Shown here one piece after another: positions 2,370 through 19,168 of a stretch of 21,174 nucleotides of DNA. Source of the stretch: a virus. Every line of letters begins with the position of its first letter. Position 1 is the stretch's first letter. The position numbers and the translations under genes are program-made. The stretch spans positions 1-21,174 of IMG/VR virus record IMGVR_UViG_3300028025_001087, one strand, 5' to 3'. The notes beneath the pieces are model-generated. The model ran no database searches. It was not told where the DNA came from and saw only the letters and a program-made list of their open reading frames with translations.

Positions 2370-3814
2370 TGCAGACGCCGATTTTAGGCCAAGCTTATGT
2401 TGCCCGTAGCGTAAATGCCGCGGATAACACTATGGTTAACCTATTCCCCGAAGCCATCCCTGAAGGTGGGCAGACAGGGGGTTTTCTTAACCGCGCCCCA
2501 GGCTTACGTCTTTTAGCTACCATAGGAACAGGCCCCATCCGTGGGCTTTGGACGCACTCTACAGGTGGCAACGACGCTTACGTAGTGTCTGGCAATAAGT
2601 TTTACAAGATTGATCTTAATTACAACGCTACTGCATTAGGCACTGTTAGCGGTACTGGCCCTGTATCTATTGCTGATAGCGGTATTCAAATCTTTATCGC
2701 AGCAGGCGCAGATGGCTACGTTTATACTGAATCAACCAACACATTTACCAAAATTACCGACCCTAATTTTGCAGGTGCTACAACCGTTTGCTACATTGAT
2801 GGCTATTTTGCGTTTAACCAACCTGATAGCCAAATTATCTGGGTAACAGAAATTCTTGATGGCACAGTTATTAACCCACTAGCGTTTGCGGCGGCTGAAA
2901 GTTCTCCTGACCAAGTAATAGCCGTTGTTAACAATAACCGTGAGGTTTGGGTGTTTGGACAGGGTACAACCGAGGTTTGGTACGACGCAGCCACTACACC
3001 GTTCCCTTTAGCGCCCATCCAAGGCGCCTACAACGAAATTGGATGCGTAGCCCCCTTCTCTATTGCAAAGCTTGATAACAGCCTGTTTTGGCTTGGTGCT
3101 GACCCCCGTGGCTTTGGTATTGTCTATCGTAACCAAGGATACACAGGCAAACGCGTATCTACCCACGCTGTAGAGTACGCCATTCAAAGTTATGGTGATA
3201 TTACTGACGCAGTAGCCTACACTTATCAGCAAGAAGGCCATGCCTTTTACGTGCTTAACTTCCCTAGCGCTAACGCTACTTGGGTTTACGATGTAGCTAC
3301 AAACGCGTGGCATGAACGGGCAGGCTGGGACAACGGCGCATTTACCCGCCATCGTGGTCAATGTCAGATGAACTTTAATAGTCAAACCATTGTTGGTGAC
3401 TATGAAAACGGCAATATTTATGCTTTTGACCTTGATGTTTACGCTGATAATGGTCAAATTCAAAAATGGGTACGCTCATGGCGCCCTTTGCCGCCCAACC
3501 AAAACAATCTTAAACGTACCGCCCAGCATACCCTTCAGTTGACTTGCGAGTCAGGCGTAGGTATTAATTTAGGTCAAGGGCAAGACCCACAGGTGATGTT
3601 GCGTTGGTCTGATGATGGCGGCCATACGTGGTCTAGCGAACATTGGATTTCAATGGGCAAAATTGGTGAATATGGCTATAGAGCTATATGGCGTCGTCTT
3701 GGCATGACTACTAAGCTGCGTGACCGCATTTACGAAATATCAGGTACAGATCCTAATAAGGTCGTTATTGTGGGTGCTGAACTATTCCTCAGCGGCACAA
3801 ACACAAATGGCTGA
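2369..3814 (+). CDS. Tail hub / DNA stabilisation protein, P22 gp10-like
   Basis: The product has 481 residues (P22 gp10 is 472). The N-terminus has the family pattern of SVNAADNTMVNLFPE followed by GFLNRAPGLRLLATIG. The middle holds repeated beta-propeller-like strands (for example GNKFYKIDLN and RQTI-like WVYDVATNAWHERAG). The C-terminal domain ends with the conserved KLRDRIYEISGTDPNKVVI stretch. In P22, gp10 binds below gp4 and carries the tail needle and tailspikes. Start at 2369 overlaps the previous stop. The 3' end overlaps the following ATG by 8 nt (3807-3814). Gene order gp4-gp10-next fibre is as in P22. Confidence 0.87.
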   Translation: MQTPILGQAYVARSVNAADNTMVNLFPEAIPEGGQTGGFLNRAPGLRLLATIGTGPIRGLWTHSTGGNDAYVVSGNKFYKIDLNYNATALGTVSGTGPVSIADSGIQIFIAAGADGYVYTESTNTFTKITDPNFAGATTVCYIDGYFAFNQPDSQIIWVTEILDGTVINPLAFAAAESSPDQVIAVVNNNREVWVFGQGTTEVWYDAATTPFPLAPIQGAYNEIGCVAPFSIAKLDNSLFWLGADPRGFGIVYRNQGYTGKRVSTHAVEYAIQSYGDITDAVAYTYQQEGHAFYVLNFPSANATWVYDVATNAWHERAGWDNGAFTRHRGQCQMNFNSQTIVGDYENGNIYAFDLDVYADNGQIQKWVRSWRPLPPNQNNLKRTAQHTLQLTCESGVGINLGQGQDPQVMLRWSDDGGHTWSSEHWISMGKIGEYGYRAIWRRLGMTTKLRDRIYEISGTDPNKVVIVGAELFLSGTNTNG

Positions 3815-4373
3815 CATTACCCTAATACCATCGGCTAAAGTACCGCTGGTTTACCCTGACACTAGCACGATGTCAACCGAGTGGTATCGGTTCTTTTGGA
3901 ACATCTATGGCTTTACAGGTACAGGTGTTGTACCTGTATCTAAAGGTGGTACAGGGCTAAACACCATTGGTAACCACCAAATTATTATTGGTAACACCAA
4001 TAACGTATTTGAACCTGCTGCATTATCAAGCGCTAGTATTGCCATTACATACCCCCCTGGCTTTGTTAACTTAGAGTTAGGCACGTCAGGTGTTACGGCA
4101 GGCACATATGGCTCTGCGTCGCAAGTGGGTGTATTTACAGTTAACCAATATGGTGTTTTAACTGCGGCATCTAATACATCAATTGCAATTGATGCAGGTC
4201 AAATTACTAGCGGTACGCTTGTTACAGCTAGAGGCGGTACAGGATTATCAACATTTGGCGCTAATCAACTTTTCTATGCTTCTAATACAAGTACAATTGC
4301 TCAATCAAGCGGATTGACTTTTAACGGCAGTATATTGACTTCTACAGGCGGTATTGGTGGAGGTAACTTTTAA
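3807..4373 (+). CDS. Fibre-like protein in the P22 needle position
   Basis: I place the start at ATG 3807, which overlaps the gp10-like stop; a longer frame from 3720 would lie wholly inside that gene. The 188-residue product starts with a short anchor (STEWYRFFWNIYGFTGTG, residues 23-40) common at the N-termini of virion-bound phage fibre proteins. It then has two GGTGL repeats (47-51 and 143-147) flanking a repeat of the type TAGTYGS...VNQYGVLTAASN (98-123), common in tail fibres. The last 40 residues resemble the middle of the 441-aa fibre encoded at 6697-8022. It ends abruptly in GGIGGGNF with no receptor-binding domain. It may be a needle substitute, an adaptor for a separate tip, or a remnant of a longer fibre. 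Confidence 0.75.
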   Translation: MADITLIPSAKVPLVYPDTSTMSTEWYRFFWNIYGFTGTGVVPVSKGGTGLNTIGNHQIIIGNTNNVFEPAALSSASIAITYPPGFVNLELGTSGVTAGTYGSASQVGVFTVNQYGVLTAASNTSIAIDAGQITSGTLVTARGGTGLSTFGANQLFYASNTSTIAQSSGLTFNGSILTSTGGIGGGNF

Positions 4374-9864: not shown

Positions 9865-10179
9865 ATGATTCAATACACTTGGAAAATTGAAGCATTAGAC
9901 TGCGTACCTGATGGCAACGTGGTGTCCAACATTCATTGGCGCGTTAGCGCTACTGATGGTACAAACACGGCTGAGGTCTACGGAACGCAGCCGTTAACTT
10001 TTGACGGCGCAAAAGCGTTTATTAACTACGCTGACCTTACAAAAAACACTGTAGTTGGTTGGGTGCAAGAAGCAATGGGTATTGACGCCGTTACTAGACT
10101 GCAAGAAGCGTTAGACAAACAACTTGAAACTTTGGCTAACCCACCTGTAATTACACCACCGTTGCCTTGGGCTGAGTAA
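9865..10179 (+). CDS. Small protein of unknown function beside the fibre genes
   Basis: The product has 104 residues, starts two nt after the spike stop and ends in a TAATG junction with the cupin-SET gene. The N-terminus, YTWKIEALDCVPDGNVVSNIHWRVSATDG, predicts beta strands; the rest (LTKNTVVGWVQEAMGIDAVTRLQEALDKQLE) predicts an amphipathic helix before a proline-rich end (NPPVITPPLPWAE). I recall short proteins with this WKI...V..V.W...A.DG pattern next to phage tail fibre genes, but no function is known to me. There is no signal peptide or membrane segment. It may be a fibre chaperone, a minor tail component or a capping protein; the evidence is position only. Confidence 0.65.
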   Translation: MIQYTWKIEALDCVPDGNVVSNIHWRVSATDGTNTAEVYGTQPLTFDGAKAFINYADLTKNTVVGWVQEAMGIDAVTRLQEALDKQLETLANPPVITPPLPWAE

Positions 10180-11009
10180 TGGAATTAACCGCCTTTACCG
10201 AACAAAAGGTGCAAACGCTTGAGGCTGCTTTTTTAGAGCAACCTCAAGTTGATTGTCCCGTTGTTCATCGGTTTGGCCCAAGCATTTACATCCGTGAAGT
10301 GACAATCTCCGCAGGCACTTTGTCTATTGGGCATCGTCAGACGACAACGCACCTCAACGTCATGTTGGCAGGGCGCGTCATTATGATTAATGAAGATGGC
10401 TCAAAAACTGAGCTAGTAGCACCTACGACGTTTGTTGCAGGCCCCGGGCGCAAGATTGGCTATATCCTTGAAGATATGATCTGGCAAAACATCTACGCTA
10501 CTGACGAAACGGATGTAGAAAAGTTAGAGGCAATGTTTTTAGATAAAAGCCAAACTTGGCAAGAACACCAAAAGAATCAGCAATTGTTGCTGTCTTTTGA
10601 CCATTCGGAAGATGTGGCTGACTATTACGCCGCTATTGCTGACTATGGGTTTGACCACGAAACTGTACAAGGGCAAGTGCAGAACCTTGACGATCAAATT
10701 GACCTGCCACATGGCGGGTACAAGATGATGGTTGCGCCGTCAAAGATTGACGGAAAAGGTGTATTTGCCACAGGAAACATTGACGCAGGTGAAGTTATTG
10801 CGCCTGCTCGCATCGCTGGCAAACGTACGCCAGCCGGAAGATATACGAATCATTCAAAAAACCCCAACGCTAAGATGATTTTGTTGGATAATGGCGATGT
10901 AAACTTGGTAGCTGCTATGCCTATCGTCGGTTGTAAAGGCGGTAATTTGGGTGAAGAAATCACAATTGATTACCGTCAGGCATTAAGCCTAGCAATAAGG
11001 AGAAATTAA
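10179..11009 (+). CDS. Cupin-like plus SET-domain fusion protein
   Basis: The product has 276 residues, translationally coupled to the gene before it. Residues ~25-110 look like a cupin beta-barrel: IREVTISAGTLSIGHRQTTTHLNVMLAGR carries spaced histidines (H52, H58) and a Gly turn, as in metal-binding cupin motif 1, though the usual Glu is not evident. Residues ~120-180 are a helical linker. Residues ~183-268 look like a SET lysine methyltransferase domain: GKGVFAT (192-198) for S-adenosylmethionine binding, GEVI (204-207), the R-x-x-NHS-x-x-PNA signature (221-231), and GEEITIDY with the catalytic-type Tyr265. SET domains methylate protein lysines. No substrate can be named. Its place between spike and ejection genes suggests a virion or host surface protein target, or a scavenged domain used for binding. 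Confidence 0.75.
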   Translation: MELTAFTEQKVQTLEAAFLEQPQVDCPVVHRFGPSIYIREVTISAGTLSIGHRQTTTHLNVMLAGRVIMINEDGSKTELVAPTTFVAGPGRKIGYILEDMIWQNIYATDETDVEKLEAMFLDKSQTWQEHQKNQQLLLSFDHSEDVADYYAAIADYGFDHETVQGQVQNLDDQIDLPHGGYKMMVAPSKIDGKGVFATGNIDAGEVIAPARIAGKRTPAGRYTNHSKNPNAKMILLDNGDVNLVAAMPIVGCKGGNLGEEITIDYRQALSLAIRRN

Positions 11010-11010
11010 T

Positions 11011-11784
11011 ATGTCTGGAGTCGCAACAGCCATTGTAGGCGGTGCCGTAATCGGGGGTGTTTTAACATCCCAAGCTTCCAAAAGCGCCGCACAAACACAA
11101 GCAAACGCAGCCGATAGAGCAACCGCAGCGCAACAAGAAGCGCTTGCTCAACAAATGGAGTTGCAAAAGCCGTTTACAGAAGCGGGTACAACCGCTGTAA
11201 ATCAGCTTTCTGCCATGACTCAGCCTGGCGGCGCAGCTACTAAAGAGTTTGCTTATGGGCCGTTTGCTTATCAAGCTGACCCTGGCTACGCATTTAGGCT
11301 TAAAGAAGGTATGAACGCTATGAACGCTACGGCGGCGGCTAGAGGTGGTTTAATCTCTGGTAACGCCCTTAAAGCAGGTCAAATGTACGGTCAAGAGATG
11401 GGTTCGCAAGAATACGGCAACGCGTTTAATCGTTACCTACAGAACTACGCCAACGCGCAAAACACGTTCCAATTGAATCGTAACAACTTGTTAGATCCAT
11501 TGAAATTCTTGACCAACATTGGTCAAGCAGGCGCAAGTAACCAAGCAGCTAACGTAGGTTCTTTTGGTAGCTCACAAGCGGCTAATACAATCGGCGCTGC
11601 TAACGCTACCGCCGCAGGTCAAGTTGGCTCTGCTAACGCTATTAGCAACGCTATTGGTCAAGGTATTGGTGGTTATCAAATGAATCAATTAATTAATCGT
11701 TCTGCATATAACACTGCGCCTTCAACATCTACCGTTTCTAGCCCCGCGCCCGTTTATGATTACAGTACACCTTATCAGCCTTAA
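11011..11784 (+). CDS. Ejection protein, P22 gp7-like position
   Basis: The product has 257 residues (P22 gp7 is 229), with ATG 11011 behind AGGAGA. It begins with a Gly/Ala hydrophobic stretch (AIVGGAVIGGVL, residues 7-18), followed by a Gln/Ala-rich helix (KSAAQTQANAADRATAAQQE). The middle contains a conserved-looking Gly/Tyr segment (DPGYAFRLKEGMNAMN, then RGGLISG). The C-terminal half is an Ala/Asn/Gly-rich repeat of the type N(V/T)G(S/A)...QAAN. These features are typical of phage internal virion proteins that leave the capsid with the DNA and help form a channel through the host envelope. It is the first of three such genes in a row. Confidence 0.75.
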   Translation: MSGVATAIVGGAVIGGVLTSQASKSAAQTQANAADRATAAQQEALAQQMELQKPFTEAGTTAVNQLSAMTQPGGAATKEFAYGPFAYQADPGYAFRLKEGMNAMNATAAARGGLISGNALKAGQMYGQEMGSQEYGNAFNRYLQNYANAQNTFQLNRNNLLDPLKFLTNIGQAGASNQAANVGSFGSSQAANTIGAANATAAGQVGSANAISNAIGQGIGGYQMNQLINRSAYNTAPSTSTVSSPAPVYDYSTPYQP

Positions 11785-11793
11785 GGAATAAAT

Positions 11794-12969
11794 ATGCCAA
11801 TCGACGCAAACATCCCCCTCCAGGTTAAGCCTTTCAATATACAACTGCCCGTTAATCAATTAGCGGCGGTTAGCGAAGCCATGAAAATTGGTGAAATGAA
11901 CCGTGGTATTGAAACGCAAAACAAACTGCGTGAGCTTTATTCTCAAGGCGTTGATGTAAGTACACCTGAAGGGTTTAATAAATTAGCTTCAGTTGACCCT
12001 TCGTCTGCCATAAAGTTAAGGAGAGATGCGCTAGAAGGCGTTAAACTTCAAGGTGATATTAAAAAAACAGGTGTTGAAACTAAAATTAAAGAACTAGAAG
12101 TTCAACGCGAACAGTTTGGCAATTTGGTATTTAACCCATCTAACGCTAACGTAACGGCGCATATTGAAGATAGCGTATTAAAAGGCAATATGCCCGCTGC
12201 TCAAGCGCAACAATTGCTTGCTCAAGTAATGCCAATGAACGCAGATCAGCGTAAACAATTTTTTACCGATATGGCTGTTAAAGCCGAAACCCGTTTCCAA
12301 GGCGATATTACTAAACGTGGACAAGATATTAGCGCGTCTACAACCATGCGTGGTCAAAACCTTACAGATGCTAGAGCGCGTGAAGGTCAAGCGTTGCAGT
12401 ACGGCCCAGATGTAGTAGCTAACACTGTCACGGATGCCGCAGGTAACGTAACTCAATTTAACCGTCAAGGTCAAGTAATTGGTAAACCTGGCGCTGTTGG
12501 TAAACCAAGCGCTACGTTTGAGAAAACGGCTGCGTTGCAAAAACAACAAGGTAAAGACCTTAGCTTGGCTATTACTGAACTTACAGAAGCTACTAAAGAT
12601 GGTGGTTTGATTGATAAATCCACAGGTAGCGGCGCTGGTCGTCTTGTAGACGTTGCGGCTGGTTTTGCTGGTCAAGCTACACCGGGCGCTATTGCTATTG
12701 CTAAACTTAAACCAATTGCTGATATTGCGCTTAAGATGGTACCGCGCTTTGAAGGCCCACAGTCTGATAAAGATACCGCGTCTTACAAAGAAGCTGCTGG
12801 TCAATTGGCTGATGCGTCCTTGCCTACTGAGATACGTAAACAAGCAGGTAGAGAAGTGTTACGCTTAATGAAGGCACGTAAAGGTCAATTTGTTAATGAA
12901 GCGATGGCAGCAGAAGGTATTGGCGCAGGTACACCTGCGTTGCCTCCTGGTTTTACTCCAGATAAATAA
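11794..12969 (+). CDS. Ejection/internal virion protein, P22 gp20-like position
   Basis: The product has 391 residues (P22 gp20 is 471), with ATG 11794 behind TTAAGGAA. It is mainly helical and rich in Gln, Ala and Lys: an N-terminal helix (NQLAAVSEAMKIGEMNRGIETQNKL), a long coiled-coil-like section (~70-115), a segment with VTDAAGNVTQFNRQGQVIG (~209-227) as seen in other phage DNA-transfer proteins, and a C-terminal helical part with VPRFEGPQSDKD and a GREVLRLM helix. No signal peptide or true membrane segment is visible. It is the middle of three putative ejection genes. The link to gp20 is by order and composition, not by clear sequence identity. Confidence 0.7.
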   Translation: MPIDANIPLQVKPFNIQLPVNQLAAVSEAMKIGEMNRGIETQNKLRELYSQGVDVSTPEGFNKLASVDPSSAIKLRRDALEGVKLQGDIKKTGVETKIKELEVQREQFGNLVFNPSNANVTAHIEDSVLKGNMPAAQAQQLLAQVMPMNADQRKQFFTDMAVKAETRFQGDITKRGQDISASTTMRGQNLTDARAREGQALQYGPDVVANTVTDAAGNVTQFNRQGQVIGKPGAVGKPSATFEKTAALQKQQGKDLSLAITELTEATKDGGLIDKSTGSGAGRLVDVAAGFAGQATPGAIAIAKLKPIADIALKMVPRFEGPQSDKDTASYKEAAGQLADASLPTEIRKQAGREVLRLMKARKGQFVNEAMAAEGIGAGTPALPPGFTPDK

Positions 12970-12977
12970 GGGTCGCT

Positions 12978-14927
12978 ATGGCACTTCAAACCGCTACTAA
13001 TCCCCAAACAGGGGAGCGCGTTGCCTTAGTTGGTGATTCTTGGCAACCTATTACTCAATCAGCCACCAATAAAGAAGGTGTTAAAGCCTATTTAATTGGT
13101 GATAAATGGTTGACTGACACACCTGCTGAACCTGAAACCCGTGCTAACGTCGGTGCTGAAGTTCCAGCGTGGGGTAAAGAAAACCCACGTTTGTACGAAG
13201 GTTTGGTAAAAGCCCGTCAAATGGCTGGCCCTACTGTTGAAATGCTTGGTGGTGTTGGCGGCGGCGTACTTGGTACGGCTGCTGGCGCTGTAGCGTCCCC
13301 AACCGTTGTTATCAACCCTGTAACAGGCGGTGTGGCTGGATCAGCCCTTGGCTATGCTACAGCTAAAGAATTGCTTAATAAGGCTGACGTAGCCCTTGGG
13401 TTAGCGCCTAGCGAAACAGGTAGTCAAGCTGCGGGTCGTGCAGCAAAGAACGTCGCTGAAGGCGCTGCTTTTGAAGTAGCAGGCGGCGTTGCGGGGAAAG
13501 TTGTTAACAAACTAGTCGACGCTGGTACCGCTGTTATGGGTAAAGTGGCTGATATTAACCAGTTGCCTAAACAATTAGCAGCCAAAATTGCTCGTAAATC
13601 ATTTGAAACACCGACAAACGTCGCTGCTGGGCGTAATGCGCTACAAGAAGCCGTTAAAGCTGGCGATGACGTAACGGCTCAACAAGCGCTTGCACAAGGC
13701 AAAGTAGTCGCCCCAGGCGCGCAGGCCGTACTTCAAAAAACTATTTCTAGGACATCTCCTGCTGTACAGGAAACTAAAGCGCTGGCTGATGAAGCTGCAC
13801 GTATGTCTACTATTAAAGATGTTACGCCAGATCTTAGCGCTGCTATTACTGTGCGTAGAGATGCAGCTAAACCATTTTATGAAGCTGCTGATAAAGCGAT
13901 CGTGCCTTTGGACAAAGACGTATCTGCCGTATTAACCCGTATGCCTGAAGGCACTTTGGCTGCTGCGGCCAACATTGCCAAGATGGAAGGTCGTCCATTT
14001 ATTATGGGTCAAAAGTCCGCAGGCAAAATGATGGAAATGCCTGGTCAATTTGACCAATTTGGTAAACCAGTTATGGTTCCTGTAGAAAGCAAACTACCAG
14101 AATTAACTGGTGAGTCTATGCACTACATCAAACGCGCCTTATCAGATATTGCGTATGGATCACCTGTTACAGGTGTTGGTCGCGATACGCAAATAGCTGC
14201 TCGTACCCTTTTGGATGACTACACCAAAGTATTTGAAGCTAAAGTACCTGAGTACGCTCAAGCTAGGGCGGTATTCTCTGACTTATCTGCGCCTGTAAAC
14301 CAAGCGCAAGTCCTTAAAGAGATGGCGTCTGTGTTGGAGAAACCAGGCGGCGGCGAGCGTATTGGCCCATTCCTTAACGTATTAGGCCGTGGCGAAACCG
14401 CTATGCTTAAACGTGCAGGTGGCAAAGGCGCTCCGCGTTACGAAGCTTTGTCTGAGGTATTGACACCTGAGCAATTGCAAACCGTGCGCGGTGTAGCAGA
14501 TCAGTTGGCTACCGAAGCGTCAATTGGCAAACAGATCTCTGCTGGTCAACAGTTGGCTACTAAGCTACTTAAAGATGAGTTGCCAAACTATCGTTTACCA
14601 AATATCTTTAATGTGATTGCTACTACCGCTAACAAAATGCTTGATGTATTAGGTCTTAAAGTTGGTGAAAAAACTATTAAAGAACTTTCTAAAGCAGGTG
14701 AAACTGCCCAATCATTTGATGAATTGCTTGCGTTGTTACCAGGGCAAGACCGCGTTAAAGTTCTAAAAGCTATGAGTGATCCTGATACTTGGGCTAAAAT
14801 CAACACCGTAGCTAAGAACCCCGCGGTGTCAAAAGCTTTAATGGGTGTTTCTGCTGATGTACCTGAGATGCCAGCCAATGCGCTTGCGCCCCAACAACCA
14901 CAGAATCAAAATGCGCTTGCGAGGTAG
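12978..14927 (+). CDS. Large ejection/internal virion protein, P22 gp16-like position
   Basis: The product has 649 residues (P22 gp16 is 609), with ATG 12978 behind AAGGG. The N-terminus carries two short copies of a repeat, ALVGDSWQPIT and AYLIGDKWLTD (residues ~16-26 and ~37-47). Residues ~83-128 form a Gly/Ala hydrophobic segment (MLGGVGGGVLGTAAGAV ... GGVAGSALGYATAKELL) able to insert in membranes. The rest is helical, Ala/Lys-rich, and ends with a Gln/Asn/Pro tail. A Gly-rich hydrophobic hairpin and long helices are common in phage proteins that pass into the envelope with the DNA. Such segments also occur in pilot proteins fused to murein hydrolases, but I see no hydrolase motif here. 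Confidence 0.72.
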   Translation: MALQTATNPQTGERVALVGDSWQPITQSATNKEGVKAYLIGDKWLTDTPAEPETRANVGAEVPAWGKENPRLYEGLVKARQMAGPTVEMLGGVGGGVLGTAAGAVASPTVVINPVTGGVAGSALGYATAKELLNKADVALGLAPSETGSQAAGRAAKNVAEGAAFEVAGGVAGKVVNKLVDAGTAVMGKVADINQLPKQLAAKIARKSFETPTNVAAGRNALQEAVKAGDDVTAQQALAQGKVVAPGAQAVLQKTISRTSPAVQETKALADEAARMSTIKDVTPDLSAAITVRRDAAKPFYEAADKAIVPLDKDVSAVLTRMPEGTLAAAANIAKMEGRPFIMGQKSAGKMMEMPGQFDQFGKPVMVPVESKLPELTGESMHYIKRALSDIAYGSPVTGVGRDTQIAARTLLDDYTKVFEAKVPEYAQARAVFSDLSAPVNQAQVLKEMASVLEKPGGGERIGPFLNVLGRGETAMLKRAGGKGAPRYEALSEVLTPEQLQTVRGVADQLATEASIGKQISAGQQLATKLLKDELPNYRLPNIFNVIATTANKMLDVLGLKVGEKTIKELSKAGETAQSFDELLALLPGQDRVKVLKAMSDPDTWAKINTVAKNPAVSKALMGVSADVPEMPANALAPQQPQNQNALAR

Positions 14928-17444: not shown

Positions 17445-17559
17445 TTTGTAACCTTTCTATTTCTTTAATTAAATCCCGAATCATTAACTCGATATTGGTG
17501 CTTGGCGCGTATTCGGCGATGTCGTCAGCCAACTTCTTTGCTTCATCTAATAACTTCAT
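17395..17559 (-). CDS. Small helical protein directly after the helicase (54 aa)
   Basis: The frame runs from ATG 17559 to TGA 17395, and the start overlaps the helicase stop as ATGA. The ribosome site GAGGAG lies inside the end of the helicase gene. The product, MKLLDEAKKLADDIAEYAPS then an IRDLIKEIERLQSEK helix, ends in a Lys/Ala tail (AAKSKAKAKAG). It looks like two helices with an unstructured basic end. It is probably made in step with the helicase and could be a partner, but this is inference. Confidence 0.7.
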   Translation of the reverse strand: MKLLDEAKKLADDIAEYAPSTNIELMIRDLIKEIERLQSEKNNAAKSKAKAKAG

Positions 17560-18890
17560 TTCAACTCCTCTAATGCAATGTCTGAAATAGCCCGTTTATC
17601 CTTCAGGGCGTCCCAAATCCTCAAGTCAATCGTTTTATTGGTTAACAAGAGGTAAACCCATACATCATGCTTCTGACCGCTGCGGTGCAAGCGGCCTACT
17701 GTTTGCTCGTACAACTCAAGGCTCCAAGGCAAGGATACAAAAACCATCTTGCTACCGCCGTGCTGAAGGTTTAACCCATGCCCGGCTGACTTGGGATGGA
17801 TCAACAGCAGTTCAATCTTGCCATCATTCCAACGCTCAATAGCCTTGTCATCGTTGATTGTCTGTGCGTTAGGATACCGACGCTTAAGTTCAGCCAATTC
17901 TTCAATAAAGTTGTAAACAATGATGGTATTGGCGTGTTGGTTTTCCTCAAGCAATTCGTCTAACAGGTCAAACTTGTGGGTGCTAAACCATATGGGCGTC
18001 TTGGTCACGTTCATGCGCCCAGGGCGGTTAGACGCGGTTGTAACCGTTTCGTAGATCCAACCGCCTGCCATCTGTTGTAGCTTGCCTGTAACTACACCTG
18101 CGTTAACTGCGGTGATCTGCACGTCCTTAAACTCAAGAACAAAATCCTTCTTCATTTTCTCGTATGGGGCGCGGTCTGCCAAGTCACACTTCATCTCAAC
18201 GGTATGGCATGGCGGTAGCTTGTCTGCGTATTCGCCAGCCTCTAATACAAATGTTGCAGGTTTGATGCGTTCCATGACTTTTCCTAATGAGCCAACCCTA
18301 GGCTCCCATTCGCCAAAGTCCTTATTGACTAGGACGAAATACTGCTGCATGAACGCGCCTTTGGCACGTCCAAGTAAGTCTTGATTAACAATCTTGCATT
18401 GACCGAATACATCTTCTAAACCATTAGATGTAAACGATCCTGTCAAACCCCAACGAATGTTGATCTTGTCTACGACCTTAGCCAATGCTTTAAAGCGCTT
18501 GCCTGATGGGTTCTTAAGCTTGGTTAGCTCGTCAAACACAATGCCATCAAAATTTAATTCTTGTTCTGACAACCATTGAATGTTGTCGTAATTAGTAACC
18601 ACTACGGGAAAACCCGAATGTAAAGCTTGGGCGCGTTGCACTGGTGTACCAACGGCTACAGCTAACTGCATATCAGTAGCCCACTTCGGTTGCTCTATAG
18701 GCCACACGTCAGTACAGACACGCTTAGGGGCCAGCACAAGCCACCGCTTAACAAAGCCATAGCGCAGCATATCTTGCATGGCTGTTAGCGTTAGCGCCGT
18801 CTTTCCCGCGCCCACAGGGGCAAGGATCATGGCACGATCGTTCTCATACAAGAAATCGGCTGCCTTTTCCTGATAATCACGTAGCTTCAA
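17556..18890 (-). CDS. SNF2-family DNA helicase/translocase
   Basis: I place the start at TTG 18890, giving 444 residues: GGAGG (18898-18902) lies 7 nt before it and the TTG overlaps the previous stop (TTGA). An in-frame TTG five codons earlier would contain the ribosome site. Motifs: Q-type LRDYQEKA at the N-terminus, Walker A PVGAGKT (25-31), LVLAPKRV (Ia), FDELTK for Walker B (~119-124; DELT replaces the usual DEAH), GLTGSFTSNG (III), then in the second RecA-like domain HPKSAGHGLNLQHGG (V) and QTVGRLHRSGQ (VI, ~396-406). This is a compact phage SNF2 protein with no extra domain. It probably moves along duplex DNA in replication or recombination, with the adjacent VRR-NUC and DUF3268-like proteins. 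Confidence 0.9.
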   Translation of the reverse strand: MKLRDYQEKAADFLYENDRAMILAPVGAGKTALTLTAMQDMLRYGFVKRWLVLAPKRVCTDVWPIEQPKWATDMQLAVAVGTPVQRAQALHSGFPVVVTNYDNIQWLSEQELNFDGIVFDELTKLKNPSGKRFKALAKVVDKINIRWGLTGSFTSNGLEDVFGQCKIVNQDLLGRAKGAFMQQYFVLVNKDFGEWEPRVGSLGKVMERIKPATFVLEAGEYADKLPPCHTVEMKCDLADRAPYEKMKKDFVLEFKDVQITAVNAGVVTGKLQQMAGGWIYETVTTASNRPGRMNVTKTPIWFSTHKFDLLDELLEENQHANTIIVYNFIEELAELKRRYPNAQTINDDKAIERWNDGKIELLLIHPKSAGHGLNLQHGGSKMVFVSLPWSLELYEQTVGRLHRSGQKHDVWVYLLLTNKTIDLRIWDALKDKRAISDIALEELK

Positions 18891-19168
18891 AATTGATCCT
18901 CCCAAGCTAAACCATGTGGATTGCCATTTTCATCTTCAGATAGCCAATCAAGTAACGTATGACATTGCGCTTTAGTAAATAAAGCAATATGGGCTTTTTT
19001 AGTAGGTAAACCCATAACTTCAGCTAATAATTGATACGCTTCAGTCCTGGTGTAGCCTTCTTCTTGCCAAAGTTTGTCAAACGCAGTGTGGGTATAGGTA
19101 CGCAAAGACTTTAAATCGTCTTGACGAAACGTACCTTGTAACTGCTTCATTTGTTGTTGTAAGTTCAT
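18887..19168 (-). CDS. DUF3268-like small protein without zinc finger
   Basis: The product has 93 residues, with ATG 19168 overlapping the VRR-NUC stop (ATGA). The core, RTYTHTAFDKLWQEEGYTRT then EAYQLLAEVMGLPTKKAHIA and LFTKAQCHTLLDWL (residues ~23-76), resembles the C-terminal half of DUF3268 (zinc-finger-containing) proteins of phages, where a pattern of R...H..(L/F)D.LW....R.EAY..LA...G.....HI..F....C occurs. The N-terminal CxxC zinc-binding part of that family is absent: the chain starts with a short Gln-rich helix (NLQQQMKQLQGTF). The family sits with SNF2 helicase and VRR-NUC genes in many phages, as here. Function is unknown but probably linked to DNA metabolism. Confidence 0.7.
   Translation of the reverse strand: MNLQQQMKQLQGTFRQDDLKSLRTYTHTAFDKLWQEEGYTRTEAYQLLAEVMGLPTKKAHIALFTKAQCHTLLDWLSEDENGNPHGLAWEDQF
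18898..18902 (-). promoter_or_regulatory. Ribosome site fixing the helicase TTG start
   Basis: GGAGG on the minus strand is spaced 7 nt from TTG 18890-18888. It lies inside the coding end of the DUF3268-like gene. Confidence 0.75.

Follow-up and report, generated by a model that had tools for sequence, protein, structure and literature searches.

The question raised by this locus is what a protein that joins a cupin-like barrel to a SET domain does among the virion genes of a phage. The window, which is the whole stretch of 21,174 nucleotides that was analysed, is, judged by its genes, part of a P22-like podovirus. It comprises the end of the P22 coat protein gene, an adaptor, a head-closure gene, a P22-type tailspike, and an S74 fibre gene, followed by a small DUF7936 gene, the cupin-SET gene, three ejection-type genes, a holin, and an endolysin. 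To our knowledge, the loading of podovirus ejection proteins into the head and the upkeep of their competence are poorly understood, and we know of no settled function for the small genes just 5′ of the ejection genes, such as gene 14 of P22 and gene 13 of T7.

Two other genes of the window are of separate interest. A 217-amino-acid gene of unassigned function (3720-4373) begins inside the head-closure gene, lies between the head-closure and spike genes, and is retained in several relatives. An SNF2/helicase-type gene on the minus strand (17556-18905) matches residues 695-1135 only of a phage helicase family of 1881 positions, and is possibly a split gene or a shortened version.

Two domains in one reading frame

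The cupin-SET gene (10179..11009, plus strand, as are all features of the window described below) is a single ORF of 276 amino acids. It matches over its full length (3e-94) phrog_34170, a family of unassigned function that already contains the cupin-SET architecture, with no annotation of function, slot, or SET domain. The AlphaFold (AF2) model of the protein (20 sequences) has a mean pLDDT of 88.8 and a pTM of 0.85, and comprises a cupin barrel at residues ~23-110 and a SET fold at residues 179-265. A preliminary description of this DNA had recognized the fusion from H52, H58, and three SET landmarks, which lie at residues 192-198 (GKGVFAT), 221-231 (RYTNHSKNPNA), and 258-265 (GEEITIDY). The ORF, the Pfam SET match, and the model all agree with this observation, which is thus confirmed. 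The structure prediction and fold search that it had proposed recovered both folds, and at the level of the overall fold the predicted model is neither lacking SET nor a plain virion beta-structure, outcomes of the kind it had named as contrary to the fusion.

The cupin (double-stranded beta-helix) domain covers residues ~20-110 (10236..10508), the only part of the protein covered by phrog_12032 and phrog_24280. The modelled barrel aligns with the cupins HP0902 (Z 9.6) and PpnP (Z 9.5) in VIA-align. The cupin-SET protein has no Pfam cupin match, and a sequence search for solved relatives of the cupin part gave matches at chance level only. Metal-site motifs 1 and 2 (HxH...E and the second-motif histidine) were not found; the only candidate site histidines are H52 and H58 with H-x5-H spacing, the second-motif histidine is absent, and the PH1 cupin has glutamine at the H52 position. 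The modelled N-terminal part is therefore described as a cupin fold with an incomplete metal site, and not as a metal cupin. It is followed by a linker at residues 113-178 (10515..10712), which is helical in the AlphaFold model, and whose second half (DYxxxLxxxG...DD) moves together with the SET module in the module alignment.

The SET domain occupies residues 179-265 (10713..10973). The protein matches Pfam SET (PF00856) with 27.3 bits and an E-value of 5.1e-6, above the curated cut-off of 22.4 bits, and all 13 SET modules of the module alignment match the same family (best 3.5e-10). A profile of the C-terminal part matches 36 SET sequences of solved structure in the PDB, with a best E-value of 1.4e-7. 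The modelled SET part aligns with the solved structures of EZH2, MLL1, and vSET at Z 9.0-10.0, and the vSET alignment (Z 9.0) has an rmsd of 2.0 over 80 residues with 34% identity. Motif I, G192-K-G194 (10752..10760), is invariant in alignments of relatives; motif III is N224-H225 (10848..10853); and the motif IV tyrosine Y265 (10971..10973), aligned to GEELTYDY of MLL1, corresponds to the catalytic tyrosine of SET enzymes. Conservation was scored by motif counts, as MAFFT columns were distorted by cut fragments. Among 112 SET sequences the NH pair is present in 111, with the last one masked by N, and the final tyrosine motif is present in at least 110. The GxG is near-invariant, with three PH1-like members missing one of its glycines. 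The gene is under purifying selection, with dN/dS of 0-0.13 in the SET part (compared with five relatives) and 0.07-0.17 in the cupin.

The phage domain shares the fold of MLL1 and of vSET from virus PBCV-1 (Z 9.0-9.3, and 11.4 for a stand-alone module), and the motifs GxG, RFxNHSxxPN, and GEExTxDY. In contrast, it lacks the SET-I or motif II segment and the post-SET region, has ~87 residues against the 105-119 of vSET, and is joined to a cupin in podoviruses. In the profile alignment the GE-V-I strand is separated from RTxxGR[YF]xNH by only 7 residues, compared with 41 in MLL1. The signature ARIxxxRTxxGR[YF]xNH takes the place of SET-I and of its motif II tyrosine, which complete the substrate channel in SET lysine methyltransferases. 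Because both are absent, catalysis by the cupin-SET protein is not assured. Sequence and model indicate a real, unusually small SET-fold domain with conserved SAM-site motifs; it is filed here as a SET-fold domain, and membership of the lysine methyltransferase class, which cannot be assumed, is only putative.

Stand-alone SETs of bacteria and archaea and the mini-SET of Pelagibacter phage Kolga are also small, but have no cupin and lie outside an ejection block. The Kolga protein (L135:4965-5273) has 102 amino acids with RTxxGxFxNHS and GEELT motifs, and no cupin gene is adjacent to it. A literature search for phage SET proteins in an ejection block found none among the papers searched.

The slot in front of the first ejection gene

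The first ejection gene (11011..11784), which encodes a gp7-type protein of 257 amino acids, matches phrog_598 'DNA ejection' at 5e-29. It begins 1 nt past the cupin-SET stop codon, and its AAGGAG ribosome-binding site (10997..11002) lies within the end of the cupin-SET gene. It is followed by a second ejection-type gene at the gp20 position (11794..12969), assigned by position with a weak match to phrog_33352, and by a third at the gp16 position (12978..14927), assigned by position and with no family match. The virion context that had been described for the gene is borne out: the cupin-SET gene lies downstream of coat, head-closure, and spike genes of P22 type and directly upstream of the ejection gene.

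On the other side, the DUF7936 gene (9865..10179; PF25590, 7e-30) overlaps the cupin-SET start with its stop by 1 nt. The preliminary description had proposed translational coupling to a small fibre-side protein. The overlap is real here, but it is not conserved, DUF7936 adjoins cupin-SET in only 3 of ~127 loci, and a functional weight for it is unsupported. The DUF7936 gene, of unassigned function, lies near virion genes in some relatives.

Relatives of the cupin-SET protein are encoded in at least 476 IMG/VR stretches. In nearly all loci the gene 3′ of the cupin gene is an ejection gene of the gp7/T7-gp14 type, with an intergenic spacing of -28 to +9 nt, and the same slot is used in several named phages, both P22-like and T7-like. 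A survey of the fusion beside fibre genes had been suggested. The fusion is found in many short-tailed phages of water bacteria; its constant neighbour is the downstream ejection gene, whereas the upstream neighbour differs among relatives. Rhodoferax phage P26218, among the nearest isolated relatives (~53% identity over the whole protein), has its cupin-SET gene immediately 5′ of ejection-type genes. The original paper on this phage mentions neither a SET domain nor a methyltransferase (PMC4657236). A frame-broken copy of the gene occurs in an otherwise similar contig (L064:325-1161), and is a sequencing error or a pseudogene.

Cupin relatives without SET are common in phages of Vibrio, Shewanella, Alteromonas, Sphaerotilus, Variovorax, and Dickeya, and in uncultured podoviruses. 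With few exceptions their genes lie directly 5′ of the first ejection gene, whose product starts with a sequence of the form M[ST]W.VA..VGG. One exception is the cupin-only gene of Alteromonas phage H4/4, which is flanked by the RNA polymerase gene and the portal gene. No SET was found elsewhere in 13 records that have none next to the cupin, some of these records being fragments. The comparison indicates that the cupin is the conserved protein of the slot and that the SET domain is an optional, portable module.

P22 gp14 (DUF2824) and T7 gp13 (PF11090) share the position directly 5′ of the first ejection or internal virion protein. No sequence relation to them was found, as the cupin-SET protein and its cupin-only relatives match neither DUF2824 nor PF11090. 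T7 gene 13 (L128:3308-3724) and its counterparts in L137-L139 and L141 have a conserved N..H[IL]R.LK..GA that resembles GNAT motif B, and the three best solved-structure matches of a T7 gp13 profile are acetyltransferases with weak E-values of 0.6-0.8. A GNAT assignment was also considered for P22 gp14 and was rejected, as the searches gave it no support.

The portability of the module is seen in its arrangements. The SET domain follows the cupin in 106 distinct loci, and precedes it in one protein in L179, L185, and L176. In L213 and L215 it forms a separate gene of 130 amino acids that overlaps the cupin gene by 4 nt (Pfam SET 3.5e-10). Modelled alone, the L213 module has a SET fold (pLDDT 87.6, Z 11.4 to MLL1), and its best Foldseek matches listed are SET enzymes throughout. 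The union of the same two domains at one place in three arrangements argues that cupin and SET work together. Module gain or loss is seen between L238 and L240, which have near-identical cupins, one with the module and the other without it. In L258, L259, and L261 the SET has been cut away and the leader VTDYELFLAEHGLTEADMASLTDLGHIKTDDKIRLA is retained. This short leader ORF (L258:2998-3130, and likewise in L259 and L261) is identical to the SET-cupin linker and then ends in a stop, and by sequence it is a remnant of the excised module in front of a different cupin.

The gene just 5′ of the split SET gene (L213:1504-2577, L215:1438-2535) carries the motif FHGSPHKFDAFDMSKIGTGEGAQAYGHGLYFAE, which recalls phage ADP-ribosyltransferase-like domains.

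SET status and the third residue of the ejection protein

A new observation is that residue 3 of the first ejection protein goes with SET status. In the window, codon 3 is GGA for glycine (11017..11019). The residue is glycine, alanine, or serine in all 105 readable cupin-SET loci. In the 123 cupin-only loci it is tryptophan (59), valine (38), phenylalanine (13), or one of a few others, and a small residue occurs in five. Of these, L317 and L318 (both Ala3) depart clearly from the pattern, and the start of the ejection protein is doubtful in L199, L242, and L337. A scan over 178-209 columns shows residue 3 to be by far the most SET-linked position of the ejection protein, with an accuracy of 0.97. 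In the SET-cupin and split lineages residue 3 is phenylalanine, as in some cupin-only phages, so the presence of SET alone does not demand a small residue.

The association was also followed on two trees that exclude the trait, the ejection-body tree omitting the first 12 residues. On the cupin tree there are at least 3-4 SET changes, and residue 3 is concordant in all 3 pairs, a sample too small to reach significance. The ejection-body tree has at least nine SET changes on supported branches, and residue 3 is concordant in 9 of 9 pairs for the majority of random pairings, with a median p of 0.0039 and a range of 0.0039-0.0156; these pairs use supported branches only, and single-protein trees of short recombining genes are weak. 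This concordance indicates that the start of the ejection protein goes with SET, and not with its own body.

The association may reflect contact with, or modification of, the ejection N-terminus by the cupin-SET protein. A serious alternative to this functional reading is genetic linkage: the first ejection codons may simply be carried along with the 3′ end of SET, in which case the signal would be silent on the target. Linkage would fit the Phe3 seen in lineages whose SET is not adjacent to the ejection gene, namely the SET-cupin and split ones, and the heavy recombination of ejection-protein bodies relative to SET, with 23 changes on the best tree. However, the signal peaks sharply at residue 3 and shows no smooth decay. 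Among SET-bearing rows, residue 3 also changes at least seven times between glycine, alanine, and serine but never to a bulky residue, and 54 of 55 retain Ser2. Linkage as the source of the residue-3 signal is thus a substantial possibility, if somewhat short of an even chance; it concerns this signal, and does not exclude the other readings.

In all 104 SET-bearing phages read, the first 19 residues of the ejection protein are free of lysine. A lysine target near the N-terminus was therefore rejected. Elsewhere in the ejection protein no conserved lysine was found, with no alignment column above 51% lysine, and overall lysine content is not raised in SET-bearing phages (2.3% against 2.8%). 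If the association is functional, the absence of lysine before residue 20 leaves the alpha-amine as the amine in reach.

The role of the cupin-SET protein

The preferred reading, based on gene position, domain content, and residue 3, is that the cupin-SET protein serves the first ejection protein as a factor for assembly or maturation, probably in a SAM-dependent manner; the chances of this reading are put at about even. The cupin would be the ancestral protein of the slot, produced just before the first ejection protein, and would probably bind the N-terminal region of the latter. The portable mini-SET would have been added to it in many lineages. It would most likely bind S-adenosylmethionine and transfer methyl groups to the first ejection protein or to one of its binding partners, before or while the ejection protein is packaged into the head. 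The Ala3 of L317 and L318, which have no SET in their records, counts against this reading. A search for a virion proteome or an assay of any family member found none. The preliminary description had left the target between a virion and a host protein, late in infection. Its interpretation is partly supported: a virion protein is favoured, but the likeliest partner is the first ejection protein, and not a fibre protein.

The SET fold may also be non-catalytic, with cupin and mini-SET forming a chaperone or docking surface for a hydrophobic ejection N-terminus until packaging. This is possible but rather unlikely. The loss of SET-I, which leaves a stretch of 7 residues from motif I to motif III compared with the 41 of MLL1, would suit such a surface, as would the cupin-only phages, which fill the slot without SET in the records searched, so that the enzyme is not essential there; residue 3 may merely suit one pocket or another. 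Pure binding would not, however, require the NH, the final tyrosine, and the GxG, which are near-invariant down to ~31% identity.

A narrower form of the maturation reading has the mini-SET methylating the N-terminal alpha-amino group of the first ejection protein. It is suggested by the substrate, which after removal of methionine starts with Ser-Gly or Ser-Ala and has its first lysine at position 20 or later, and it is considered unlikely. If true, the slot would hold alternative N-terminal modifying or binding enzymes across podoviruses, SET in these phages and perhaps the acetyltransferase-like gp13 in T7.

A structural role in the virion, as a short tail fibre or adhesin, is quite improbable. 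The gene does lie within the virion block, and relatives of the N-terminal domain are so named in GenBank and in phrog_12032 ('short tail fiber protein') and phrog_24280 ('tail fiber adhesin'), which belong to the same family as the cupin but lack SET. The VvAW1 relative carries a PHA00672 superfamily note. The named relatives are, however, single small cupins in the slot of P22 gene 14 or T7 gene 13, no proteomic support was found, the papers checked are silent on the protein, and an adhesin would be an unusual carrier for a SET module. For the cupin family, 'short tail fibre protein' is probably a misleading name. A host protein as the target of methylation, either in late infection or following injection, has a precedent in bacterial SET effectors that modify host proteins, but it is very improbable here, as position, near-zero spacing, and cosegregation indicate the ejection protein, and the bacterial hosts of these phages are without histone-type chromatin.

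The finding appears real and of more interest than first stated, with an enzymatic activity that is putative. The mini-SETs are the smallest SET domains met in this analysis, and constitute a natural experiment on what a SET domain requires. A SET-like module in this slot suggests that the injection machinery of these podoviruses may be chemically modified, and points to one protein and to one end of it.
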